Part shown: one piece after another, positions 7,951 through 52,103 of the stretch
How positions within the stretch are numbered: the stretch's first letter is position 1
Layout of the letters: every line of letters starts with the position of its first letter
From: Gemmatimonadaceae bacterium
GTDB lineage: Bacteria; Latescibacterota; UBA2968; UBA8231
Assembly (NCBI GenBank): GCA_002726335.1
Contig: PBSR01000118.1
Location: forward strand, 1 to 52,103
Length of the DNA: 52,103 nucleotides
Reading direction: 5' to 3'
The notes under the pieces: model-generated
What the model was told of the DNA's origin: nothing
Databases searched by the model: none
Seen by the model: the letters and a program-made list of their open reading frames with translations, nothing else
Program-made: the position numbers and the translations under genes

Positions 7951-9447
7951 ATGAAACGAGTATCTCAGCTTCGCGATCTGTCCGAAGATCATCACCACGG
8001 CCTGGTTCTGGCGCGAAAGGCGAAGAGGGCCGCATCCGGTCCGGACGGGACTGTAACCGAGGTGTGGGCCGAGGTGGAGGCAGCCTTCAAGGGCGAGCTG
8101 GAATCGCACTTCGAGATCGAAGAGTCGTTCATCGGCGAGGCCCTGCGAGCGGCCGGCGAGTCACAGCTTGTCCAGCGACTTGCCGACGAGCACCAGGTGC
8201 TTCGGGGGCTCTTCATGCCCGGGCAAGGGCGGGCAGTGGACGATCTGCAGCGTTTTGGCGAACTCCTGGAGCGACACATCCGGTTCGAGGAACGGGAACT
8301 GTTCCAGGTCGCCCAGGACAAGCTGAGCAGCGACGAACTCGACGTCGTCGCGGCAGCCTGCAGCAAGAGACGGACAGAGCTGACGTTGGTGATCCACAGT
8401 CTGTGCAAGCAGGATCCCGAGCCCATCTCAACTGCCTTTGATGAGATCGGCTGGAACCGACCCGTGGCTCAGTACGAGACCTACCTGGATCAACAGGAGG
8501 CGGGCGATCTGCATGTGCTGGTGGCGACGGTGGAGGGCCTGTTCGCGGGATATGTCACAGTCAAGTGGGAGACGGACTATGCGCCGTTCGCGGATGCCGG
8601 AGTACCCGAAATCCAGGACCTCAATGTGCTGCCCCAGCACCGCCGTGGTGGGATCGGCACCGCCTTGATGGAGGCAGCAGAGGCGCTGGTCGGAGAGCGC
8701 TCGTCCACCGTTGGCATTGGCGTCGGCATGTACCCGGACTACGGCAACGCGCAGAGACTCTATGTGCTGCGCGGCTACGTACCGGATGGTCGAGGACTGA
8801 CCTACAATGGCAGGATACTCGAACCCATGGAGTCCACCGTGAACGACGACGATCTCGTTCTCTATTTCACGAAGGCACTGGTCCAGAGCGATGATGGCCT
8901 ACGGGAGTCGTCTCCTGAGTCGACGCCGGTGGGCCGCCTCATCTTTCGGCGCTGGCACCATCTGTATTCAAGATGTGGCTCCGGGCGTATGCGAGCCGAA
9001 GATCTGAGAATCACGCCCTTCAGCCCTCTGCATCAGTTGGCAACTCGCAAGCTGATCCTGGTGGGCCTGGGTGAGCACTGGGGCTGGATCGATGAGCACA
9101 TCAATACGGATCTCGAAGATATCGAGGCATCCTATGCCGGCGGCGATTTCGTCCTCGGTTGGCTGGGGGACAGGCTGGTCGCTACCGGGGCACTGATTCC
9201 CGAAGAGGAGCACACGAGACGGATTGTCAGGATGAGTGTGGCCAGGCGATTCCGCAGGCAGGGTTATGGGCACCAGATTCTTGACCATCTGCTGGCTATC
9301 GCGAAGAAGGCCGGGATAGGACGAGTGGTTGTGGAGACCACAGAGACGTGGGACGAGACAATCGCGTTTTACAGAGCGTATGGCTTTCAGATTGACGGGC
9401 ACCGCAGCGGCGATGTTCACATGTCACTTGATCTCGATCAGGCCTGA
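7951..9447 (+). CDS. Hemerythrin-like HHE domain fused to two GNAT acetyltransferase domains
   Basis: 498 residues in three parts. Residues 1-150 are a four-helix HHE domain with a His/Glu pattern (DLSEDHHHGL, LESHFEIEESF, LADEHQVL, LERHIRFEERELF) suited to a di-iron or other cation site. Residues ~165-320 are a GNAT domain with the acetyl-CoA loop PQHRRGGIGTALM. Residues ~355-498 are a second GNAT with RRFRRQGYGHQIL. ATG 7951 has GAGGAG 9 bp upstream and matches the usual HHE start; a TTG at 7927 would add 8 residues. The combination suggests an acetyltransferase gated by metal, oxygen or redox state, but that is inference. Confidence 0.85.
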   Translation: MKRVSQLRDLSEDHHHGLVLARKAKRAASGPDGTVTEVWAEVEAAFKGELESHFEIEESFIGEALRAAGESQLVQRLADEHQVLRGLFMPGQGRAVDDLQRFGELLERHIRFEERELFQVAQDKLSSDELDVVAAACSKRRTELTLVIHSLCKQDPEPISTAFDEIGWNRPVAQYETYLDQQEAGDLHVLVATVEGLFAGYVTVKWETDYAPFADAGVPEIQDLNVLPQHRRGGIGTALMEAAEALVGERSSTVGIGVGMYPDYGNAQRLYVLRGYVPDGRGLTYNGRILEPMESTVNDDDLVLYFTKALVQSDDGLRESSPESTPVGRLIFRRWHHLYSRCGSGRMRAEDLRITPFSPLHQLATRKLILVGLGEHWGWIDEHINTDLEDIEASYAGGDFVLGWLGDRLVATGALIPEEEHTRRIVRMSVARRFRRQGYGHQILDHLLAIAKKAGIGRVVVETTETWDETIAFYRAYGFQIDGHRSGDVHMSLDLDQA

Positions 9448-9452
9448 CCACT

Positions 9453-9908
9453 TTGGCCGCACGAGATATACGGTTTCAGGGGGCGATCGTGCAGGAGGAC
9501 CGCATGCTCATCCTTCGCTACAAGCCACCGGAGGATTTCCCGTTCTGGCTGATTCCTGGTGGAGGACGAGAACCCGGGGAATCAGAGACCGAGTGCGTTG
9601 TACGTGAAGTGCTCGAGGAGACCCATCTGGTTGTGCATGTTGCACGACTGATTCTCGAGGTCGCTGCTCCTCGAGGAGACACCTACAGACTATTGCGTAC
9701 GTATCTGTGCCACCCGTTGGACGGAGTGGCCAGCCCCGGATATGAACCGGAGGCAGAGGCCGCAGACGTGGGCGAAATCACAGAGGTTCGATGGTTGCCG
9801 CTGCACGACGAGCATGACTGGCCCGACGATCTACGACAGGATCATATCAGTTACCCGCAGATCCATGAGATACGACGGATATTGGGTTATCTCGGCGGCG
9901 AGGAATAG
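9453..9908 (+). CDS. NUDIX hydrolase
   Basis: 151 residues with a full NUDIX box, GGREPGE...REVLEETHL, fitting GX5EX7REUXEEXGU. Enzymes of this family cleave nucleoside diphosphates linked to another moiety. The TTG at 9453, five bases after the previous stop, is chosen because the first beta strand (DIRFQGAIVQEDRMLIL) lies before the ATG at 9504, although that ATG has the better ribosome-binding site. Stop codon is TAG. Same strand and close spacing suggest co-transcription with the HHE-GNAT gene. Substrate unknown. Confidence 0.85.
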   Translation: MAARDIRFQGAIVQEDRMLILRYKPPEDFPFWLIPGGGREPGESETECVVREVLEETHLVVHVARLILEVAAPRGDTYRLLRTYLCHPLDGVASPGYEPEAEAADVGEITEVRWLPLHDEHDWPDDLRQDHISYPQIHEIRRILGYLGGEE

Positions 9909-9945
9909 TGCGCGCCGCGTCTGCCGGGGACGGGAAGGGGAGTAC

Positions 9946-10302
9946 GTGTCATTTCTAGACGAAGAGATGCCAGACCTGCGCACCGAACGTCTTGTGATCC
10001 GTCGGTTCACGATGGAGGATCTCGAAGATTTCCACCAGGTCCTGACCGGCGACCAGGACTGGTGGGACGATTGCAGCCTGGAGGGTGCCAGGGACGCACT
10101 GGCGTTCCGCATTCGGCAGACAGCCTACCACAACCCTCCCCTCGGATACCGTGCGGTTATTCTGCAGGACGAGGACCAGTTGATTGGAACGGTCGGATAT
10201 GAGTGCTATTTCCTGGATGCAGAGGAACGGGCCTGGCCTGGCGTTTTCGGCATGATCGAACAGGGCGATTTTCACCAACACCGGAGGAAGCTTGATGGGT
10301 AA
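9946..10302 (+). pseudogene. Truncated GNAT acetyltransferase
   Basis: 118 residues beginning at a GTG preceded by GGGGAG. The start LRTERLVIRRFTMEDLEDFHQV is the classic RimJ/RimL-type GNAT N-terminus. The protein ends just after FLDAEERAWPGVFGMIEQG, before the acetyl-CoA pyrophosphate loop (Q/RxxGxG/A) and the second half of the fold; the family is usually about 170-180 residues. The end runs into the ribosome-binding site and start of the next gene, as if a deletion joined the two. Unlikely to be an active acetyltransferase. Confidence 0.6.
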
Positions 10303-10845
10303 GGTCTTCGACGAAATCACCCCTGAGTTGAGCCAATGGATCGAGCAACAGCACATGTTCTTCGTCGGCTCGGCGCCACTGCAGTCTGACGGCCACATCA
10401 ATTGCTCGCCGAAGGGCATGGACACTTTTCGAATCCTCGGGAAACAAGATGTCGCTTACATCGATATCACTGGAAGTGGTGCCGAGACGATCGCCCATCT
10501 TCGCGAGAATGGCCGGATCGTGTTCATGTTCTGTGCGTTTTCGGGGTCACCCAGGATTGTTCGCCTACACGGCCATGGAGAGGTTCTGACACCAGGCCAA
10601 CCAGAGTTTGCCAGCTTCTCGGAACGATTTCCCGATCACATCGCGTGAGAAGCATCATCTCATGCAAGGTTGGCCGCATCAGCGATTCGTGTGGCTATGC
10701 CGTCCCCCAGTATGAATTCGTGGGTGAGAGAGACGTCCTGACCAAGTGGGCGATCGCCAAGACCGAGTCGGGACTGGCGGACTACCGAAGAGAGAAGAAC
10801 GCCACAAGCATCGATGGTCTGCCCGGGTTTCCTGCTGATTCGTGA
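10295..10845 (+). pseudogene. Pyridoxamine 5'-phosphate oxidase-like protein, frameshifted
   Basis: The ATG at 10295 has GGAGG 7 bp upstream. Frame 1 gives 117 residues (MGKVFDEITPELSQWIEQQHMFFVGSAPL...) ending at a TGA at 10646-10648, straight after FPDHIA. Reading continues in the -1 frame from GTG 10645: VRSIISCKVGRISDSCGYAVPQYEF to GLPGF, the usual C-terminal part of this ~180-residue flavin-reductase/PNPOx-like family. One base missing around 10641-10645 would restore FPDHIGVRSII. Either a genuine frameshift or an assembly error. Substrate of the intact family unknown. Confidence 0.7.
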
Positions 10846-10965
10846 CGGAGCCAGGAGTCCGGTGACGACGACGCGCCCGTCGAGCCCAGACGGGCCGAAC
10901 ACACCTTGCCCGAGGGCTCCCGATTCACGTTACTGGGCTCTCACCCCGCTATCGATTCCGAGCCC

Positions 10966-12948
10966 ATGTCGCGTCATGCTTTAGTAGGTTGGCCCATCCT
11001 CTTGCTGATGCTGGCACCCTCGTGGGTGCAGGGCCAGGCCGACACAGCAGCGGGCACGATCCTCCGTGTCACTTCCACCGACCTGTTGCCCCTCACCGGC
11101 ACCTGGCGGTACAGCACGGAAGATGAGCCAGGGTTCTCGAGCCCCTCATTTGACGATCGAGCCTGGCCCGAGATCTCCACACCAGGGCAGTGGCACATCC
11201 TTGGAATCGACTCGGATGTCGTCTGGTATCGGCGGCACTTCCTTGTTGCAGAAACGCTTCGAGACACACCTCTCGCTCTGGAGATCCCACTGATCGCCGA
11301 CGCCCATGAGATGTACGTGAACGGTGTCCGGGTCGGAGGTCGCGGGAAGATTGCCGTCGATGGCACGCTGGAGCAGAGGAGCAACCGGCCCGGTGTGTAT
11401 CGGATCCCCCCAGGGGTGCTCCGCTTCGGGTCCCCTGTGAATGTGATCGCCATGCGGGTGGCGGACAACGTCGGCTGGGGGGGTGTGGTGCGGCCGGAGT
11501 TCTACATCGGGGGGGAGCGCCGGATCACGCGCGATTTCGAGCTCCAGCTCATGCGCCGGGCAGGGCTCTGTCTGGCGTTCCTGGTTACGGGGCTTCTCTA
11601 TCTGGTCTTCTATCTTGGGAGTCGTCAGCCCACCTACCTGTACTATGCTCTGTTCTCATCTCTGAGCGGTGTCGAGGCGGCGGCGCTCGCCTCGACGGGC
11701 TACTGGCTCAGCGATTCGTTTATCTTCAATCACATCCTGCAGCACGGCCCCTATCATCTGTTCGCCTTCGCCCTGACAGGCTTTCTCCACACGTTCTTCG
11801 AACTGGAAACGCGGGTCGCATTCTGGGTGCGGGTCGTGACGATTCCACTTCTCGTCGTCTTCGTCCTTGGATGTTTCAGTCTGACCTTCCTGAAGGTCTA
11901 TGCCCTCTACACCTTGCCGATCGTCCTCGGCCTGATCGTGCTTACCATGGGCTACGGGGCGTACGTGATCGTTTCGTCTGCGAGCCGGCTCGAGGCCGGC
12001 GCGCAGATCATGCTTGGGGGCCTCGTCGTGCTGGCCATGGCGATCTTGAACGACGTGCTCAACTACTTCAAGGTCTTCGATACGTTCCGCGTCGTGCCGG
12101 AAGGGATGTTGGTGTTCACCGGAAGCATGGGTGCCGCGGTGGCCTACCGATTCGCTGAGATCTATCAACGGAGCGAAAGGCTGAAGAGACAACAGCAGGA
12201 GGAACGGGCGCTGCTTGCCGCGCAGGAGGAGGAGCTACAGACCGCCCGCCAGATGCAGATGGGACTGATGCCGGCTTCGCCGCCCAGCGTGACGGAACTG
12301 GATGTGGCGGGGAGGTGTCAGACAGCCAACCATGTGGGCGGGGATCTGTTTCAGTATTTCACCAGACGGAATGAACTCTCGGTCGCCATTGCGGATGTCA
12401 CGGGCCATGCGATGGTGGCCGCCATCCCGGTGGTGATGTTCAGCGGCATCCTCGACCGGGAGATGGAATTGCAGATCGAGCTGGGTGATCGCTTTGGTGG
12501 CCTGAATCGTTCCCTCTGTCGCTCTCTCGGTGAGCGAACGTTCATCTGCTTCACGATGGCCGAGATCGATACTGACTCAAGGAGGCTCCGGCTCGCCTCC
12601 TGTGGTTCGCCCTACCCGCTGCACGTCCACAACGATACCATCACCGAACTCAAGATCGACGGCTACCCCCTTGGCGTAACCGAGAACTCGACCTACGACG
12701 TGATCGAGGCGCAGCTTTCAGCCGGCGACTATCTGGTGATGTACTCCGATGGCATCCCCGAGACGGTGAACGCCGATAAGACGATGTTCGGCTACGGGCA
12801 GACCATCAACACCGTACGCGAAGCGTGTGCCGAAGGGATCGCGGCTGAGGAGCTGGTGGATCGACTCATGTTGCGGGCGCGTCGTTTCGCCGGAGACGAA
12901 CCACAGTCTGATGACATGACGTGCGTCGTGGTGAAGGTGGAGGGATGA
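10966..12948 (+). CDS. 7TM receptor-like protein with SpoIIE/PP2C-type phosphatase domain
   Basis: 660 residues. A signal peptide (LVGWPILLLMLAPSWVQGQA) leads into an extracellular jelly-roll domain at ~25-185 similar to GH2 sugar-binding domains (LTGTWRYS, FDDRAWPEI, MYVNGVRVG). Then come seven hydrophobic segments at ~190-400, a short coiled coil (~405-440), and a SpoIIE phosphatase with GGDLFQ, IADVTGHAMVAA, YSDGIPE and QSDDMTC metal-binding Asp residues. Such proteins sense an external ligand and dephosphorylate an anti-anti-sigma factor (RsbU logic). ATG 10966 starts the signal peptide; a TTG at 10906 adds 20 unlikely residues. No partner switch genes are nearby. Confidence 0.85.
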   Translation: MSRHALVGWPILLLMLAPSWVQGQADTAAGTILRVTSTDLLPLTGTWRYSTEDEPGFSSPSFDDRAWPEISTPGQWHILGIDSDVVWYRRHFLVAETLRDTPLALEIPLIADAHEMYVNGVRVGGRGKIAVDGTLEQRSNRPGVYRIPPGVLRFGSPVNVIAMRVADNVGWGGVVRPEFYIGGERRITRDFELQLMRRAGLCLAFLVTGLLYLVFYLGSRQPTYLYYALFSSLSGVEAAALASTGYWLSDSFIFNHILQHGPYHLFAFALTGFLHTFFELETRVAFWVRVVTIPLLVVFVLGCFSLTFLKVYALYTLPIVLGLIVLTMGYGAYVIVSSASRLEAGAQIMLGGLVVLAMAILNDVLNYFKVFDTFRVVPEGMLVFTGSMGAAVAYRFAEIYQRSERLKRQQQEERALLAAQEEELQTARQMQMGLMPASPPSVTELDVAGRCQTANHVGGDLFQYFTRRNELSVAIADVTGHAMVAAIPVVMFSGILDREMELQIELGDRFGGLNRSLCRSLGERTFICFTMAEIDTDSRRLRLASCGSPYPLHVHNDTITELKIDGYPLGVTENSTYDVIEAQLSAGDYLVMYSDGIPETVNADKTMFGYGQTINTVREACAEGIAAEELVDRLMLRARRFAGDEPQSDDMTCVVVKVEG

Positions 12949-28274: not shown

Positions 28275-28306
28275 ACGGGGGTCCGCTGTCGGTAGCGGAC
28301 CCCCGT
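28275..28306. terminator. Bidirectional rho-independent terminator
   Basis: A perfect 13-bp stem, ACGGGGGTCCGCT and its complement, closes a 6-nt loop (GTCGGT). On the plus strand it is followed by TTTCTTTT; on the minus strand by a T run (complement of CCAAAAA). It lies between bactofilin (+) and groEL (-) and would stop both. Confidence 0.93.
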
Positions 28307-29997: not shown

Positions 29998-30053
29998 CTA
30001 AGGGGTTGAAAGGGAGATACTTATAACTGCGTTTGAAGCTGATGATTTCGAGT

Positions 30054-30080
30054 GTAGCACTCATGGCCGGAGAGTGCTAT
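30054..30080 (-). promoter_or_regulatory. CIRCE operator (HrcA binding site) upstream of groEL
   Basis: On the minus strand it reads ATAGCACTC, nine bases, GAGTGCTAC. Each arm differs from the consensus TTAGCACTC-N9-GAGTGCTAA at one end base. It lies 69 bp upstream of the groEL ATG, where HrcA represses heat-shock transcription. Confidence 0.92.
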
Positions 30081-30298
30081 GTGTTGCTGATGAAACATCA
30101 AAGATACAGGTGAGGGTGTCTTCCGACAAGTGGTAAAATGGCGAATTTTCCCCGGCACGAGCGGGGGGTCCACACGGTTGCCGCTGGCCCGGCCTTCCGT
30201 TAGTTTCTCGACAGTGCCAGCAGTAAGCATCCTCCTATAACACAATGACTTACGACATCAATGCCGGCCTCAGGGCCGGTCGCCGGGAGACCCTGTAG

Positions 30299-31669
30299 AT
30301 GCTCGACCTGTTGACCATTGCACGAACCGAAGCCGAGGGTGGCGATCTCCTTGGCCTGCTCGAGGGTCTGTTCCAGCCCGCAGACGTCAGGCCCGAAGGG
30401 TATCCCGATGCCGTCATCTGGCAGGGAGGCAGCCACGACGGCACGGTGCATCCGGTGGCCCATTCCCTGACCGATGCCTACGCCCTGCTGGGTACGATCG
30501 CCGCCATCGATGTGCTGGGCCTGCCGTACTACGCCGTTCCCATGTGGGCCCAGTACCGGCACGATCTGAAGCTCGAGCCCCTGAGCTGGTTCGGGAACAT
30601 GCCGTGTACGTCGATCAAGTGGTCGACGGCGGGAGATGCCTGGGTAGACGACGGCCAGGGCGGCAAGGTTGTCGTCATGGGCAAGTCCGGCAATGCGCCG
30701 CTCAGGACACAGGCGGGGGTCTACTGTAATGTGCGCCCCTACGGCACCATTACCGTGGTTCGCTGCATGCCCTGTCTGCCGTATTCGCAGGACAAGGCGA
30801 AGTTCGACGTCTGTTCAGATACGGGGATCGTGCACTCCGAAATGAATACCCCCGGTGTGCAGATGGCCTACGCCAGTCGCCGCTTTCTGCAGATGGTACA
30901 CGAGACGGGCAAACTCGGTCGCGTCGCCTTCAAGCCGACCCAGGCGATGGAGGACGGGATCAACGCCGGGTTGCTGTCCTGGTTGTTGCAGGGCACGAAG
31001 TTCGAGGTGGGACGGAAGTATGCCGTCGACGGCTACGAGGAGCATCGCGAACGCGTAGATCGCATCATCGCCCTGCTACCTGATGATTTCAAGGCCGGTA
31101 TGGAGCACTGGGACGGTCGGGTCGAGCAGCACATTGCCGACACCAACTACGGTCTGCTGCTCTGGGACCTGATCGACAAACAGGACGCCATCGTGCTGGC
31201 CACCGACCTGGACGGAGATCGCCTCACAGACCTGCTCGCCGATGTCTCCGATCCCCTGCGACACTTCGGGCAGCTCGTCATCGACAAGGTGGGGGCCAGC
31301 GCCTCGATGGACGACCTGTGGACCGACATGGGGTATACGACGGGCAACGGTCGGGACATGACGTCGGTGATGTATCGCATGAATGGCCCGCCGATCCACG
31401 AGCAGACTCTCGGTTCGGCCGACGCCATGCTGCTGCGACTGCTCGATGGCGACGAGTCGATGGGCAGCACCAAGAGACCCTACGACCCACGCATCCACTT
31501 CGTCCTCATGCGCGACGCCTACGTCGACGCCAACCCGGACAACGACGGTCTGCGCACCTGGCTCGACGAAGCACTGGCGAAGTTTGACCAGGTCTACAGC
31601 GGCGACCGACCAGGGTTTCTCCAGGGATATGAGCAGCTGAAGACGGCGATCAAGCCCTGGGGTGAGTGA
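30299..31669 (+). CDS. Conserved-looking protein of unknown function
   Basis: 456 residues; I do not recognise the family. It has no signal peptide and no clear membrane segment, and looks like a soluble, mixed alpha/beta enzyme. There are five Cys at ~101-185, including VVRCMPCLPY, and conserved-looking WQGGSHDGTVHPVAH, WFGNMPCTSIKW and DTGIVHSEMN. GGGAGA precedes the ATG by about 9 bp. The frame is open to an ATG at 30245 except for one TAG at 30296, directly before this start. It is divergent from groEL and convergent (3 bp gap) with the SDR. Confidence 0.75.
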   Translation: MLDLLTIARTEAEGGDLLGLLEGLFQPADVRPEGYPDAVIWQGGSHDGTVHPVAHSLTDAYALLGTIAAIDVLGLPYYAVPMWAQYRHDLKLEPLSWFGNMPCTSIKWSTAGDAWVDDGQGGKVVVMGKSGNAPLRTQAGVYCNVRPYGTITVVRCMPCLPYSQDKAKFDVCSDTGIVHSEMNTPGVQMAYASRRFLQMVHETGKLGRVAFKPTQAMEDGINAGLLSWLLQGTKFEVGRKYAVDGYEEHRERVDRIIALLPDDFKAGMEHWDGRVEQHIADTNYGLLLWDLIDKQDAIVLATDLDGDRLTDLLADVSDPLRHFGQLVIDKVGASASMDDLWTDMGYTTGNGRDMTSVMYRMNGPPIHEQTLGSADAMLLRLLDGDESMGSTKRPYDPRIHFVLMRDAYVDANPDNDGLRTWLDEALAKFDQVYSGDRPGFLQGYEQLKTAIKPWGE

Positions 31670-45347: not shown

Positions 45348-47630
45348 TCAATAGGCCACACCAAGCGTCCGCTGCAGGCGTTCGTCACCAGCATCACCCT
45401 CGATCTCGACGCTGAGAATGTAGAGCCCGGGAGTCGCTCGACTGCTTCCGGTGCTGCCGTCCCAGACAAGATCTACCTTGCCGGCCATCGCCTCGCTGTC
45501 GAGCAGCTCCGCGATGGTCGCGCCGCCGAGATCGAAGAGCCGAACCCGCAGCCGTCGGGGCTCGAGGAGGCGCATCAGGTCGAAGCGAATATCCAGCCTG
45601 TCGTTCACGCCGTCCCCATTCGGCGTGATGACCGGGCTCGATAGCTCAAGGTTCTGCAGCATCGGTCCCCGCGTCGGCAGTGACACGGAAACCGTCTCAT
45701 TCTCGACGTCGGCCGAGGCGTCGCCCTCATCCACGCGCTGACGAACATCGGTGCCCAGGGCGCTGTTGAAGAGCACCGTCTCATAGCGCGTCCGGTTGAC
45801 GAAGACCGTGCTCTCGAAATCGATCTCCACCCGCGCATCCCGGCGCAGTCGATCATCCAACCGCAGCCGGAAGCCGTCCTGCTGGGGCGTCGCCGCGGCG
45901 GCCGCAGCCTCGCCATCGATTCGGATCCCGCGATAGTGCATGTCCGCCGAGGACGTGATCTCGATCTCGTCGAAGCCCCGGTCAGAGTCTTCCGTCACGA
46001 TCCTGAGTACGTAGGTGAACACGATGGGGGTGCCCGGCGTCGCTTCCGCCGGTGAGATCTCCGCTCGGGTCGCGGCCACCAGCGGTGGATGAAAGCGCAG
46101 CGACAATTCGTCGAGCTGCGCTGCTCGCTGCGGATTGTCCGATAGAAAGCGGGCCTCCATCTGCACGTATCGCCGAGGCCCCGGAGACAGGAAGGCCTGA
46201 CCTGGTTTCTGGTACGAACGGCTCCAGGCGCTCCAGTCAGAGCCGGCAGACCGCGTGGTGTCGACAGGACCCCGGAAAGACGGGATCAGCCGTTCCCACT
46301 TCCGCCGAGTCAGCTGTTTGCCATTCTTGTCGAAGTAGGTCCGTTCCTCCTGCAGCTGATTTCCGGTGCGGCTGCGAATATGGATGGCCGTTCCCCCAGG
46401 GAGCGACGCCTTCCAGTCTACGGCGGTCACGTTCTGTGCCACTCCGAGATCGAACAGCGGGGACCGCGAGACGACCTCTGCGGCGTAGCCCTCGCCGAAG
46501 ACCTGCATCTCGGCGGTCACCCCGGAAAGGGCGGCAGAGGTCATGCCGAACAGCAGACGAAGGTAGCGCAGTTTCCTCGGTTTGAAGGTCTCCTCAAAGT
46601 GCACGATGTCCCGGTGGTTGCGCGGACTCTCCGGCAGGTCACCAAGAGGCGTCCAGCGCAGCGTTCCATTCGGCGCCAGCGAGCCGTCAGAACCGGACAG
46701 CTGGTACCACAGGTAGTTGATCGAGCCGAAACGAGTGCGGGCCCGCTCTCCCGTCGTGGGCAGGCCGCTGAAGTCTCCGAGAAGGCGCGTGCGGTCGACC
46801 CAGAACAGCGCCCCCAGGTCGAGTGTAAAACGGGCGACGGGTACCGCGCCACGACCTTCCTTGCGCCCCCAGTACGTGGTGATATCGCCGTCGATGATCA
46901 GGCTGGAGAGGAACTCGGACTCCTCCCGCTCACGGTCTCCGGCGCCCAGCAGGCTGCGGACCTCGATACTGCCGCCACGCCCCAGTGCACCCAACGAAAG
47001 GTTGTCTCCGGGTGTGGCGACGCGCAGATCGGCCAGTCCGGCGCCCGGTCTCAGCCGGTCCGCCTGAATCCGGACATACCGGATCGGCACCAGGTTCAGA
47101 TCGATGTGAACGGTGTAGCTCTCGCTGTAACTGAAACGCTCGCGCCGGTTGTAGCGCAGAGTACCGTCGATGGCAACCCCGGCATTAGAAAAGAACGGCT
47201 CGCCGTCTGAGAAGAGAACGCGGAAAAACTCCAGCGGCACCGCTGTGCGATCGAAGTCGAGTTCGACGTAGTGGGCCGATACAACCCGCCCGAGGTCGAC
47301 CTCTATCCACCAGTCGTCCAGTTGGGTGGATTGATCCGGTCTCCAGGCGGAGATCGGATCCTCATCGATCAGCGCCGATGCCTGAGGCAGTGAGGCGCCG
47401 GCACCGCGTACACCGCCACCGAACTGGCCGGCATTGTCCACAGCGTCCATCCGGCTGCGAACGAAGGCCGGGCCGATGGCACCCTCAGCAATCAGCATGG
47501 CGTCTCCGGGTACCGACCAGCGTCGCCAGTCGGTGTCATCATCGACAACCAGTTCATCAGCGCCCGTGGGCGGGCCATAGAGGGTGCACACAATCATGTA
47601 CAACACAACGGGGGCGTTTCGCGTGGGCAT
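45348..47630 (-). CDS. Secreted protein with discoidin-like repeats and C-terminal FlgD-like Ig domain
   Basis: 760 residues. A weak signal peptide (VVLYMIVCTLYGPPTGA) precedes two F5/8-type C (discoidin-like) domains at ~75-205 and ~225-385 (WIEVDLGRVVSAHYVELDF; RFTLDLGALFWVDRTRLLG). Beta-rich regions follow, and residues ~665-755 form a FlgD/gliding-associated Ig domain (ITPNGDGVNDRLDIRFDL, VWDGSTGSSRATPGLYILSVE). Such C-termini occur on secreted proteins of FCB bacteria. It may bind glycans at the surface. No neighbour supports a more exact role. Confidence 0.82.
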   Translation of the reverse strand: MPTRNAPVVLYMIVCTLYGPPTGADELVVDDDTDWRRWSVPGDAMLIAEGAIGPAFVRSRMDAVDNAGQFGGGVRGAGASLPQASALIDEDPISAWRPDQSTQLDDWWIEVDLGRVVSAHYVELDFDRTAVPLEFFRVLFSDGEPFFSNAGVAIDGTLRYNRRERFSYSESYTVHIDLNLVPIRYVRIQADRLRPGAGLADLRVATPGDNLSLGALGRGGSIEVRSLLGAGDREREESEFLSSLIIDGDITTYWGRKEGRGAVPVARFTLDLGALFWVDRTRLLGDFSGLPTTGERARTRFGSINYLWYQLSGSDGSLAPNGTLRWTPLGDLPESPRNHRDIVHFEETFKPRKLRYLRLLFGMTSAALSGVTAEMQVFGEGYAAEVVSRSPLFDLGVAQNVTAVDWKASLPGGTAIHIRSRTGNQLQEERTYFDKNGKQLTRRKWERLIPSFRGPVDTTRSAGSDWSAWSRSYQKPGQAFLSPGPRRYVQMEARFLSDNPQRAAQLDELSLRFHPPLVAATRAEISPAEATPGTPIVFTYVLRIVTEDSDRGFDEIEITSSADMHYRGIRIDGEAAAAAATPQQDGFRLRLDDRLRRDARVEIDFESTVFVNRTRYETVLFNSALGTDVRQRVDEGDASADVENETVSVSLPTRGPMLQNLELSSPVITPNGDGVNDRLDIRFDLMRLLEPRRLRVRLFDLGGATIAELLDSEAMAGKVDLVWDGSTGSSRATPGLYILSVEIEGDAGDERLQRTLGVAY

Positions 47631-47774
47631 TGAGCAGCCGTCGGCGTATGTCAGCGGTACCGGACTTCGGGGCGAGATCGAAGTCTATTCTTTCGGCCCG
47701 GGGGCTGCCAATCGGTCGGCACAGAACGAGAAAGCGCAACTTCGTTAGAAAACACGGAGTTGCGTATCAGGACA

Positions 47775-47797
47775 TGGTGGAGCTGAGGGGAATCGAA
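47775..47797 (-). other. tRNA-Ala/tmRNA 3'-end fragment, probable attL
   Basis: On the minus strand these 23 bases give the T-loop and acceptor end of a tRNA-Ala-type molecule: TTCGATTCCCCT, then CAGCTCCACCA at the CCA end. The rest of the gene is absent: the sequence before TTCGATT (GGCTATGAT) cannot pair as a T stem, and no 5' acceptor strand follows. Tyrosine integrases often use exactly this part of a tRNA or ssrA gene and leave such a fragment at the far end of the element. The CCA faces left, so the element should lie to the right. Confidence 0.72.
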
Positions 47798-47852
47798 ATC
47801 ATAGCCTAAGTGCGTATGCCAACTGTATGTTAACGCGAATACACAACAAACA

Positions 47853-47875
47853 TACCCCGTAAAACTACCCCGTAA
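47853..47875 (+). repeat. Two direct TACCCCGTAA repeats near the att fragment
   Basis: TACCCCGTAA occurs at 47853-47862 and 47866-47875, start-to-start 13 bp, about 56 bp from the att-like fragment. Paired short repeats at this distance are typical of integrase arm-binding sites. Function is inference. Confidence 0.6.
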
Positions 47876-47962
47876 GCGGTGGCGGCGGTGCCAGGGTGCC
47901 CGCCCCCACGAGGGGGTGCCGGTCTTTTCTGTGCGGCGGGATCTGGGGCCCCATCTGTGGCC

Positions 47963-48122
47963 TGGTTGGGGCTGATTCCCGACCTCCGCCCTGTGGTCGC
48001 CCGTTACGTTCCATCTAGTAGCCGCCTAACGAACCGAAAACGGCGGAGACGTGGTGGGTCCCTCTACTCCACGGCCAAATCTCCCACACCAGCGATTCTG
48101 CAGGTCCTCGCTGTAATCAGCC
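47963..48122 (+). repeat. Diverged direct repeat, copy A (about 160 bp)
   Basis: Aligned by eye with 49573-49732 over its whole length, both starting GGTTGGGGCTG. Shared blocks include TTCCCGACCT, TACGTTCCAT, CCGAAAAC, TGGGTCCC and CCCACACCAGCGATT. I estimate about 70-75% identity. Copies flank the glycosyltransferase gene. No protein or known element recognised in it. Confidence 0.75.
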
Positions 48123-48199
48123 CCCCCCGGGCAAGCTTCCGTGGCCCACCGGCGCCGTTGTGGTCGTGGCAACCCCGTCGTCAGCCTATACTGAAGAGC

Positions 48200-49510
48200 A
48201 TGTTCGGAATCTATCCGGTCAATCCTGATGAATCCCTCTGCGCATCGATCGCCTGGAGTCTGTGGAGCGAAGGACGGCTGGCGACGACGCTGCTGCAGGG
48301 GGCCTTGCCGGGCATCGAGCACAGCGTCTATTGGACGCCACCACTCTACTACCTCGTGCTCGCCGGTTGGATGGGACTTTTCGGCCCCGGGCTGCTCGCC
48401 GTGCGCTCGCTGTCGCTGATCCTGGGGCTGGTTCTCATCGTCGTACTCTGGCAGAGACACCGCAGCGTCGGCGTCACCGCGTGGACGTCGTGCGCCCTGG
48501 TTCTGTTCGACCCATCGCTGCAGGGCGCCGCATCCATGGCGCGCATGGACATGCTGGCAATCACGCTTACTGCGGGCTCGCTGACGTGGCTTGAGGTGGG
48601 TCGTGACGAGCGTCGCTACCTGGGTGTGGGCGCCCTGGCGGCAGCGGCGATCCTGACGCATCCGTTGGGCGCCGCAGCCATGGCAGCTGCCGGCCTTACG
48701 AGTCTGCTGCGAGGACGTCGCCTCGTGCTCCTGTTTCTCGCCGGCAGTGTGCCCCTGCTGTTGGCCTGGGGGGTGTACATTGCCCTCGATGTGGACACAT
48801 TCGTGGCGCAAATGCAACTGCAGTTGGCGGTAAAATCGGGCAGGGCGCAGTCACCCCTTGGCAACCTGCAACGTCTGGCCGAACTCTCCGGGCCCCTCGC
48901 ACCGGTGCTGGCAGTGGCCTTTGTTGGTGGTCTGGCGGGGCTGATCGCAGGTTGGCGAGAGTTGCTCCCCTGGCTGATCGGCGCCGTCTGCCTGGCGCCG
49001 TTGGCGCTGTTTTCCGGGGAACTGGTCTACCCGGCGTACATGGCGCCGTTCACCGCCGTCGGGCTGGGCTACTGGCTGCAGCTGAGTCGCTGGGCGCGTC
49101 GTGCCGTGCTGGTGGCCGTACTGGCGCTTTCTATGGCCCTCATCATGGATCGGCCTCCTCTGGCAGGCATCGACCCGACGTACGAGCTCTACTGCAGCTA
49201 CCTCTCCGATCATATCGGGCCCGGCAACACCGTCCTGTTCGCCATTTTGCCCGATCCCTGGTTCGGCTTCCAACACCGCACCGATCTGCAGTTACGGGTC
49301 GCGCCGCCTGTCGTCATCGACATGCCACAACTGGACGCCTACGTGGGCGCCGCCGATCTGGTTCTGTTCGGTGGCTACAATCCGCCTGGATTCATCTCGA
49401 TCATCAAACGCTGGGACGAGGTGGCACATCCAGGGGAGCATCTGTGGATCCTGGAAGGGGGAGAACTGCACGACTTCGCCAATGTCCGGGACAGAGTGCG
49501 GTTTCGCTGA
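48200..49510 (+). CDS. GT-C-type membrane glycosyltransferase (family 39-like)
   Basis: 436 residues with about eight to ten hydrophobic segments. The catalytic acidic motif of GT-C enzymes appears as VNPDESL near residue 10, followed by YWTPPLYYLVLAGWMGLFG, typical of dolichyl- or polyprenyl-phosphate-sugar-dependent transferases. The TM helix normally before this loop is missing in this frame, where the upstream DNA is repeat copy A, so the gene may be 5' truncated. ATG at 48200 has GAAGAG upstream. It lies to the right of the att fragment, inside the proposed element. Confidence 0.75.
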   Translation: MFGIYPVNPDESLCASIAWSLWSEGRLATTLLQGALPGIEHSVYWTPPLYYLVLAGWMGLFGPGLLAVRSLSLILGLVLIVVLWQRHRSVGVTAWTSCALVLFDPSLQGAASMARMDMLAITLTAGSLTWLEVGRDERRYLGVGALAAAAILTHPLGAAAMAAAGLTSLLRGRRLVLLFLAGSVPLLLAWGVYIALDVDTFVAQMQLQLAVKSGRAQSPLGNLQRLAELSGPLAPVLAVAFVGGLAGLIAGWRELLPWLIGAVCLAPLALFSGELVYPAYMAPFTAVGLGYWLQLSRWARRAVLVAVLALSMALIMDRPPLAGIDPTYELYCSYLSDHIGPGNTVLFAILPDPWFGFQHRTDLQLRVAPPVVIDMPQLDAYVGAADLVLFGGYNPPGFISIIKRWDEVAHPGEHLWILEGGELHDFANVRDRVRFR

Positions 49511-49923
49511 GTGCGCGCACACCTGAGAAAGAGCCCCTCTACCGGGTACTGGCCGAGTACTTGGAGACCTTTGGTTGGGGCTGGTTCCCGACCTCGCCCC
49601 TACTGTTGGCCGCTACGTTCCATATAGAGGTAGCCTAATCGATCCCGAAAACAGCGATGCCGAGATGGGTCCCCCTACTCCGCACCCAAATTGCCCACAC
49701 CAGCGATTTCCGGTTCCTCGGCTGCAATCGCCCGTCGGACTAGCGGTTCAGCAAGACCGATTCAAGCCATTGCGCGGAGACTCACCAGCGTCGAGGGGTA
49801 GATTCCGGAGTCAAGAGTTGCTCACCCTGGGACGTGATGACCAGCCTCCAGGTTCCAGATCGCGTAGAAGACCAACCCCATTGCATGGGGCGAGATCGGC
49901 CTATACTGCTGTCGACTGCCACA
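49511..49923. other. 413-bp stretch with repeat copy B and no clear gene
   Basis: Apart from the second ~160-bp repeat it contains only short, unsupported open frames. After the repeat, CCTATACTG at 49900-49908 matches the CCTATACTG just before the glycosyltransferase, so a promoter-like element may accompany each repeat copy. Confidence 0.5.
49573..49732 (+). repeat. Diverged direct repeat, copy B (about 160 bp)
   Basis: Second copy of the repeat at 47963-48122, same orientation, 1.6 kb apart and separated by the glycosyltransferase gene. Differences are mostly substitutions with few small gaps, so the copies are old rather than recent. Confidence 0.75.
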
Positions 49924-50070
49924 TTGGTCGGTTGGCGAACGCCGCGGGATTGGTTCGGCCTATGGAGAATACTGGACTGGATTCCTGCTTCGGTCGCAAT
50001 GGTAGTTGCGGGGATCGCCATCCTCTTTGCCGACGAGAAAAGAGAGGACGAGGATGAACCGATGGCGTGA
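49924..50070 (+). CDS. Possible small single-span membrane protein
   Basis: 48 residues from a TTG, or 78 from a GTG at 49834. A Trp-rich start (WRTPRDWFGLWRILDWIP) leads into a membrane segment (ASVAMVVAGIAILFA) and an acidic tail (DEKREDEDEP). The TATACT at 49902 would favour the shorter form. No family recognised. It stands 30 bp before another small membrane protein. Confidence 0.35.
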   Translation: MVGWRTPRDWFGLWRILDWIPASVAMVVAGIAILFADEKREDEDEPMA

Positions 50071-50100
50071 TCGGTCGTCCCGAGTCGCCACGCCATCGGT

Positions 50101-50364
50101 ATGAACTTTGAAAGAGGGCTCCATCGGCTAGCGAAGGTTGCTGGCCTCCTTCTGGCCGGATGGGTCTTTCTGGTATGCGAAGCATTTGGAATCACGGCGG
50201 TCTTTACCTATGAACGGACGAGTGAGTTGTACCTTGGCGTCGCACTTATCGTCATTGGCGTGGTGGGCGCGGTTGCCGCCTATTATCTGATAGGGTGGCT
50301 ATCCACCGTCCTTCTCTGGATCATCCATGGATTCACCGAAGAGGATGTGAAGGCAGAGGATTGA
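50101..50364 (+). CDS. Small two-span membrane protein
   Basis: 87 residues. Two hydrophobic segments, VAGLLLAGWVFLVCEAFGI and LYLGVALIVIGVVGAVAAYYLIGW, followed by STVLLWIIHGF and an acidic end. A basic start (MNFERGLHRLAK) fits an inside N-terminus. No ribosome-binding site is clear. Function unknown; such small membrane proteins are common in mobile DNA. Confidence 0.5.
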   Translation: MNFERGLHRLAKVAGLLLAGWVFLVCEAFGITAVFTYERTSELYLGVALIVIGVVGAVAAYYLIGWLSTVLLWIIHGFTEEDVKAED

Positions 50365-50570
50365 TACGTGGCTACAGTCGTGCTCGCGGCCCTTACGCCG
50401 AAGGAAAACGCCTCTACGTGGATCTGGTGCGTTCTAGGCCGGTGCCTCAGTTCTGTGATGTGGGACCCCTATTCGGGGGACCCTTCCGCGGATGATATCC
50501 ATAGCTGGAATCATGGGACCTCTGCTGGGGGGAGGGGTCTGCGGAGCAGCAGCCTCCCTCACACAGAGGA

Positions 50571-51098
50571 CTATCCCTGGACGATGCGTTTTAGCTCTTC
50601 ATCCGACAGCGATGTCACCTCTGACTTGATCTCTTCTTCGATGGGCTTCACCCACCGCTCAGGTCGGCGTCTGTTGAGTACCCAGCGTCTGTCTGTGGGA
50701 TTGGACTCAGCGGCTTGCCACTGATGTTCCTCCAGGTCGTCGAGGACTTGATCCACAACATCCTCCCAGCGCCTACGAAACCCGTCGTCATGTTTCCGCT
50801 GGAGATAAACACCCGCAGTACCTGCCAGGCCGGTAGCCCGACAAGCTGCGGTAACGTTGAGGCCGTTCCTGCTCAGGAAGCGGAGGAACTCATCCTGGCG
50901 GTCCGGTGTGACGTAGTTCTTCCTGAACCTCGGCCTGAACACTTCACCGCTGTACATATCTATGAAGCTAGCACGAACGTGGAACCCGCGCCTGTCTAGA
51001 CGCGGCGGGGGGGTCCTCGGGAGCCACACGTCGCCATAATCGACGGGCAAGTCCTCTTTCGAGACACCAAGCTGCCCGAAGGGGCCCAAGGCGTCCAT
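50571..51098 (-). CDS. Phage terminase small subunit-like HTH protein
   Basis: 175 residues from the ATG at 51098, directly after the RepA-like stop; the frame is open to 51161. Residues ~85-175 read FLRFLSRNGLNVTAACRATGLAG, then a helical stretch (FRRRWEDVVDQVLDDLEEHQWQ) and LNRRRPERW. This is the usual order of phage terminase small subunits and transposon HTH proteins: a DNA-reading helix-turn-helix, W-x-x-A-type helix, and the RP-x-x-W end. No large subunit is in the window. It supports a mobile origin. Confidence 0.65.
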   Translation of the reverse strand: MDALGPFGQLGVSKEDLPVDYGDVWLPRTPPPRLDRRGFHVRASFIDMYSGEVFRPRFRKNYVTPDRQDEFLRFLSRNGLNVTAACRATGLAGTAGVYLQRKHDDGFRRRWEDVVDQVLDDLEEHQWQAAESNPTDRRWVLNRRRPERWVKPIEEEIKSEVTSLSDEELKRIVQG

Positions 51099-51100
51099 AT

Positions 51101-52103
51101 CTATATGTGGCCATCTTGGGCGTCTTGGGGGCCATCTTCCGGCCTCAACTCCCATGTCCACCCCTTATCGAACGCTGACTTTCGGATCTTGCAGACCCGC
51201 TCTTTTGCTCGTCGTAAGGTGCGCGGGGTGATTCCTGCCGACTCCGCTTCGGCCATAACGTCCTTGGCTGGCATTTGGCCATTGGCCAACGCCTCCCGGA
51301 GGAACTGTTCGGCCTCGTCCCTGGCGCTCAGATCAGAGGCGTCGCCTCCGCCCAGCACCTGCGAGGTCGTCAGTGTCGTCTCGCCAGTCCAGGTGAACCG
51401 CCCTTCCTTGATGGAGTAACCGAGAGGCGGGGCCTTGGGACCTAGGTTGGCCTTCTCGTGGAACAGGGCGCACCTATCAGGGTCGTCCGTATCGCTCCCA
51501 GCCAGCAGGGCAGATCGGGCAGCGTTGACGAAGTCTCCGGAGCCAAGGGCTCGGTGAACAGCCTTTGCCGTCTGCCCCTTGGTGACGTGCGTTGAGAGCA
51601 GGATGGCCGCTCCAGTGCGCTCCGCGACCTCGGATAGGGGTGCCAGGACGGCCCGCGTCTCATTTGCTCGGTAGAAGTCCACGCCCCGACCAAGGAACGC
51701 CACAACCGGGTCGATGATAGCTAGTTCCGCCTTCTTCTCGACGATCATGCTCTCGATGAACTGGATTCCATCTTCGTCGAGCCCAAATGGTTCGCCACAG
51801 GCGTAGATGTGTCGGGTGTCAGCGTCTATATCATCAAGGCGGCGGCGAAGCTCACCAAGTTGGTCCTCTCCTGTGAAGAAGATGGAGGCTGAAGCCCGTC
51901 CGGTGCCCTCGGCTCCGGGTAGCCCTGCCCCCGTTGAGAGAGCCGCAGTCATGGCCAGGCAGATGTGAGTCTTGCCGACGCCGCCGTCGCCAAACAGGAG
52001 GGTGAGGTAACCAGCCGGTATTCGAGGATACCACAGCCATGTCGGCTTCTCCGCCTTCACCTGGGAGAGTTGGACTACGACCTTGGTTCCTTTCGGCGGC
52101 CTA
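51101..52103 (-). CDS. RepA-like RecA-fold ATPase (5' end cut by window edge)
   Basis: The frame runs off the right edge; a GTG at 52060 gives 319 residues but the coding sequence continues upstream (KGTKVVVQLSQ). WLWYPRIPAGYLTLLFGDGGVGKT has Walker A; ELAIIDPVVAFLG is Walker B; LLSTHVTKG resembles motif H3 of hexameric RepA/DnaB-type helicases. The C-terminus (PAKDVMAEAESAGITPRTLRRAKERV) is a winged-helix-like module found in phage and plasmid primase-helicases. It is probably the replication protein of the element, possibly preceded by a primase domain outside the window. Confidence 0.75.
   Translation of the reverse strand, partial: RPPKGTKVVVQLSQVKAEKPTWLWYPRIPAGYLTLLFGDGGVGKTHICLAMTAALSTGAGLPGAEGTGRASASIFFTGEDQLGELRRRLDDIDADTRHIYACGEPFGLDEDGIQFIESMIVEKKAELAIIDPVVAFLGRGVDFYRANETRAVLAPLSEVAERTGAAILLSTHVTKGQTAKAVHRALGSGDFVNAARSALLAGSDTDDPDRCALFHEKANLGPKAPPLGYSIKEGRFTWTGETTLTTSQVLGGGDASDLSARDEAEQFLREALANGQMPAKDVMAEAESAGITPRTLRRAKERVCKIRKSAFDKGWTWELRPEDGPQDAQDGHI

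Follow-up and report, generated by a model that had tools for sequence, protein, structure and literature searches.

When an element inserts into the 3' portion of a tRNA gene, the original 3' end of that gene stays behind on the far side of the element, and crossover commonly takes place in the T-loop; sublocations within tRNA genes were reportedly described in a 2002 paper. Phage-inducible chromosomal islands carry an integrase, a replication gene, and a small terminase, have no full set of virion genes, and depend on a helper phage. In Islander (PMC4383910), which covers islands and prophages that tyrosine integrases place in tRNA and tmRNA genes, a displaced tDNA fragment is the standard signature of such insertions and is used to find them.

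Here we describe a locus that resembles these systems near the right end of a 52,103-nt stretch of DNA (hereafter the window, meaning the whole stretch that was analysed). Positions 47775-47797 match, on the minus strand and without a mismatch, the 3' end of a tRNA-Ala-type gene, and we estimate a probability of roughly 70% that this is a displaced chromosomal tRNA-Ala 3' fragment marking the distal end of an element inserted by a tyrosine integrase into a Latescibacterota chromosome. Like the Islander islands (PMC4383910), the window has a 3' tDNA fragment at what would be the distal end, oriented as expected and with mobile-type genes on the inside; it differs from them in that the integrase and the intact tDNA would lie outside the view, as the window would end inside the element. 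Two Islander criteria, that the tDNA fragment be displaced and that it lie outside the Pfam-domain part of a coding gene, both describe the situation at 47775-47797. Insertions of this kind are common and their mechanism is textbook, but a precisely placed attachment end with tRNA-Ala as its target would open a way into the mobile elements of a little-studied and under-sampled phylum. Passages from a few open-access papers that name the phylum describe no integrated element of Latescibacterota, and we make no firm claim that such elements are unreported.

The tRNA-Ala-type 3' end and its flanks

The 23 bases at 47775-47797 read TTCGATTCCCCTCAGCTCCACCA on the minus strand and run from the T-loop to the CCA end; we propose that they are the residual attachment-site copy. 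An exact scan of species-representative genomes with this 23-mer returned at least 118 stretches, and in the 118 listed it belongs to a tRNA-Ala gene in 107, to a tmRNA gene alone in three, to both in one, and to neither in seven. The corresponding counts for 22 viral stretches are 14 tRNA-Ala, one both, and seven neither. GGGG precedes the T-loop in all 140 of these stretches (the 118 listed genome stretches and the 22 viral ones), whereas the window differs there; past the CCA, the window shares no base with 120 of them, one base with 17, and two bases with three. Because the GGGG edge is absent from the window and at most two bases are shared past the CCA, the block of identity extends from the T-loop to the CCA. 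The next-best match to the 23-mer inside the window has seven mismatches, and ARAGORN predicted neither a tRNA nor a tmRNA gene anywhere in the 52,103 nt. The first-pass annotation had described these bases as the T-loop and CCA end of a tRNA-Ala or ssrA gene without the rest of the gene, and the comparison bears out both the extent of the fragment, with its sharp 5' edge, and the proposed origin. Between the two candidate genes, tRNA-Ala is much the likelier source because it accounts for 107 of the 118 listed genome stretches; an element inserted in ssrA would agree with the three tmRNA-alone contexts and the one shared context, and against that large tRNA-Ala majority we consider it extremely improbable.

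Of the seven genome copies assigned to neither gene, five sit where the fetched stretch ends, and the other two are real partial copies. The latter (L067, 5405-5427; L092, 4393-4415) are tRNA-Ala 3' ends that reach the anticodon stem without the remaining gene, and they are probably attachment-site copies of other elements.

The fragment is intergenic, between a gene that ends at 47630 and one that starts at 48200, and a 143-aa ORF that overlaps it (47378-47809) has no Pfam match. On the left it is adjoined by a 760-aa gene with a match to F5/8 type C (45348-47630), and the left-flank protein has no confirmed relative in viral contigs. Farther left are ordinary chromosomal genes, including those for OTCase, SurA-like proteins, and Mfd. 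Among the best 120 of 1995 matches to the Mfd protein, the window's sequence shares 89% identity with one named Candidatus Latescibacteria, and the matches at 67-69% include several named Latescibacterota; other named matches among the same 120 are Gemmatimonadetes (75% and 69%) and Handelsmanbacteria (68%). From this sequence likeness, the host is taken to be a member of the Latescibacterota. In the 12 genomes compared for kinship, Mfd is only 40-55% identical in its best piece.

The most likely history of the locus is that a tyrosine integrase inserted the element into a chromosomal tRNA-Ala gene. A crossover within the T-loop (TTCGATT) would have joined the host 5' part of the gene to a 3' end borne by the element, far to the right, while the old tRNA-Ala 3' end would have stayed at 47775-47797 beside its old downstream flank. 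Since the tRNA lies on the minus strand, the element should be located on the right-hand side of the fragment, with an intact minus-strand tRNA-Ala gene at its right end. As it extends rightward, its cargo would include the glycosyltransferase-like gene, the terminase-small-subunit-like gene, and an AAA_25 helicase gene of primase or DnaB type. The geometry, the sharp block of identity, and the break in codon usage described below together agree with this being a distal att end, with the element running to the right.

The fragment might instead be a tRNA-derived piece that arose without an integrase, for example by partial duplication, or an att remnant of an element elsewhere that was recombined into this position. 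In favor of such an origin, the visible 4.3 kb to the right contain no integrase, and tRNA fragments are known to arise in other ways, such as inside a CRISPR array, according to one study (PMC9897764). However, the block spans exactly the T-loop to the CCA, phage-type genes lie in the predicted direction, and the same study ascribes seven of eight fragment cases to integrating elements (PMC9897764); we regard this origin as highly unlikely.

Two small features beside the fragment would suit an attachment site, although neither is proof by itself. Just beyond the CCA end on the tRNA strand is a hairpin (47735-47764, minus strand) with an 11-bp stem and one mismatch, possibly the old terminator of the original tRNA gene. 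This stretch folds at -18 kcal/mol (z -1.76, with 11 of 200 shuffles equally good), a hairpin like it occurs in 34 of 1000 shuffles and at six further places in the window, and a terminator scan did not include it among its results. To the right of the fragment, at 47853-47875 on the plus strand, two direct copies of TACCCCGTAA start 13 nt apart, at 47853 and 47866, and could represent arm-type sites of the integrase. The pair had been pointed out in the first-pass annotation, and it is indeed there. No further copy occurs in the window with one mismatch allowed, and viral contigs contain no copy of the pair; among 2000 shuffles of the 570 bases around the pair, 33 had an exact 10-mer repeat at a spacing of 10-30 nt, as do five other places in the window. 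Both the pair and the hairpin are just mildly beyond chance. Elsewhere in the window, at 28275-28306, there is an inverted repeat whose 13-base arms pair perfectly around a loop of 6 bases.

Integrase matches beside the same 23 bases in viral records

Over the 4.3 kb visible beyond the fragment on its right, no integrase was detected among five proteins searched against Pfam and four searched against PHROGs, an absence to be expected only with the integrase at the opposite end of the element. The viral records that carry the 23-mer provide a precedent for the use of this target. A Phage_integrase match is present in 11 of the 22, seven of them over the family cut-off, and in 10 of these 11 no more than 1.5 kb separates it from the 23-mer (no more than 170 bases in eight; six of the 10 are over the cut-off). 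The eleventh record (L128) has its integrase match 41 kb away. Where the 23-mer stands beside a Phage_integrase match, as in L124 and L129, the shared sequence falls at or within the presumed attachment site, as it would in the window. The viral records with a partial gene differ from the window in that their identity goes deeper into the gene (CAGGGG and beyond), while that of the window stops at the T-loop.

Composition and gene content to the right of the fragment

On this side, the gene closest to the fragment (48200-49510, plus strand) encodes a PMT_2-like glycosyltransferase. Its product matches PF13231 with an E-value of 1.8e-5 and a score of 25.4 bits, just below the cut-off of 26.1, and the protein has no match among phage proteins. 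Either side of this gene stands one copy of an imperfect direct repeat of about 160 nt, at 47963-48123 and 49572-49733 on the plus strand, and the two copies are 78% identical (E 7e-29); neither the gene nor these repeats had been mentioned in the first-pass annotation. A blastn search of the window gave no third copy, the next-best hit having an E-value of 0.32. The ends of the first copy are partly complementary (47960-47977 with 48115-48132). A reading of the repeats as integron attC sites was rejected, as there is one RYYYAAC and no GTTRRRY in 47880-48200 and neither motif in 49500-49780. Rfam returned nothing at its gathering score anywhere in the window, and the one hit below it, BjrC68 on the second copy, scored 18.2 bits where 39 are required (E 0.19) and was taken as chance.

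For the analysis of codon usage, 20 ORFs picked from the left-hand side, not all of them, served as the host reference, and their length-matched pieces served for comparison. The PMT_2-like gene scored close to this reference (z -0.95), and the ORFs beyond it scored far below: -4.35 and -4.67 for the two small ORFs that lie between the PMT_2-like and terminase-like genes, whose status as genes is putative, -4.03 for the terminase-like gene (-3.45 for its conserved core), and -3.32 for the helicase gene. With the exception of the PMT_2-like gene, no host piece scored as low as any right-hand ORF tested; this holds for each of 129 overlapping pieces in the case of the terminase-like gene and for each of 38 in that of the AAA_25 gene. 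This break in codon usage supports the presence of foreign DNA on the right. Host-likeness calculated from 4-mers in intervals of 1000 bases was lowest at 49501-50500 (z -4.78) and also low at 47501-48500, around the fragment (z -2.86), while the intervals within 48001-49500 were near normal (z -0.88 and -0.04). This argues that the clear compositional start lies nearer 49.5 kb than 47.8 kb. Dips are present on the left-hand side as well, at 9001-11000 and 30001-31000 (z -2.4 to -2.8), and the former region, far from the proposed element, combines low GC with low host-likeness (z -2.6 to -2.8).

The first-pass annotation had placed the start of the element at the fragment and its body to the right. 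The type and orientation of the fragment, its T-loop edge, and the phage-type genes with non-host codons agree with that placement, while the host-like first gene inside and the lack of an integrase in 4.3 kb speak partly against it. These last two points leave some probability that 47775-47797 is a relic, or that the boundary of the element lies near 49.6 kb. The fragment would then be the scar of an older insertion that was lost or decayed, the PMT_2-like gene and the repeats would be chromosomal, and the foreign block would begin from about 49.6 kb, at or after the second repeat copy, having arrived by another route. The contrast in codon usage between the PMT_2-like gene and the ORFs to its right (-3.3 to -4.7) and the 4-mer profile, near normal up to 49500 and lowest directly after, are what such a history would produce. 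On the other hand, the host-like gene may be cargo acquired from a relative, all 23 nt of the fragment are intact, which fits a maintained or recent site, and the interval around the fragment is itself low in host-likeness. We therefore consider a scar rather unlikely and prefer an element that begins at the fragment and includes the PMT_2-like gene.

Terminase-like and helicase genes and their relatives

Farther right are two minus-strand genes that the first-pass annotation had called terminase-like and RepA-like from the sequence, and profile searches agree with both names. The product of the first (50571-51098 in its 175-aa form, with the conserved core from 50957 down) resembles the small subunit of terminase (phrog_4044, E 4.6e-7). 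This profile is matched by 12 of the 13 members of the protein's alignment, two of the 13 being the window's own protein at two lengths. The protein belongs to a cluster found on 12 contigs, of which the longest has 175,459 bases, and an identical protein (P0223) is listed for it; it has no match among phage proteins and no confirmed relative in viral contigs. Its predicted structure has a mean pLDDT of 42, and the best solved structure by sequence has an E-value of 0.26. The second gene (51101-52102), whose 5' part is cut by the window edge, encodes an AAA_25 (RepA-type) helicase (PF13481, E 3.5e-22). The 175-aa start of the terminase-like gene, at 51098, lies two bases past the helicase stop codon in an operon-like arrangement. 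By sequence, the solved structures closest to the helicase are RadA, ArsA, and RepA (E 4e-5 to 4e-3). Its five best relatives are 56-63% identical, and three of these proteins (P0002, P0004, and P0005) have an N-terminal DnaB_N domain. Among the matches listed, from 8000 scored candidates that shared the most words, none is identical to the helicase and the best is 63% identical. This may be explained if the full-length protein exceeds 1.75 times the length of the query, which was the limit of the search, and is thus a larger primase-helicase. The DNA at 47600-52103 has no match to phage DNA.

From the gene set of a tailed prophage (terminase, portal, capsid, and tail), the small-terminase-like gene is the one in view, and the others would lie beyond the window. 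Phage-inducible chromosomal islands combine a small terminase gene with a replication gene, and here the small-terminase-like and replication helicase genes lie near the tRNA attachment end, as seen from the part of the element within the window. The element might be a phage satellite of the Latescibacterota, an island of this type in tRNA-Ala that encodes a small terminase of its own, directly after a primase-helicase gene, and would thereby redirect packaging by some helper phage; we regard this as unlikely.

Matches to the helicase were found in 81 phage records, all below 60% identity, and in 14 plasmid records. In viral contigs, neither the single protein nor an alignment of eight rows as query gave a confirmed relative, whereas an alignment of 13 rows gave 83, of which 80 were kept; we studied 46 of these, from the top of the listing (L146-L191), and set aside the 34 below them. 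Among these 46, seven have a Phage_integrase match (six over the cut-off), three have a phrog_4044 match, one has a tRNA gene (tRNA-Arg) in the fetched stretch, and none matches the A3 profile in a search that had no positive control. As integrase, phrog_4044, and tRNA matches are so few among these distant relatives, the neighborhood is not a recurrent module in that collection. One further relative, with 29% identity, is encoded on a 13-kb phage contig from human feces (L142, region 9686-11669, with nine of the 23 listed ORFs scanned), where it stands directly before a gene of the integrase or invertase kind (phrog_95).
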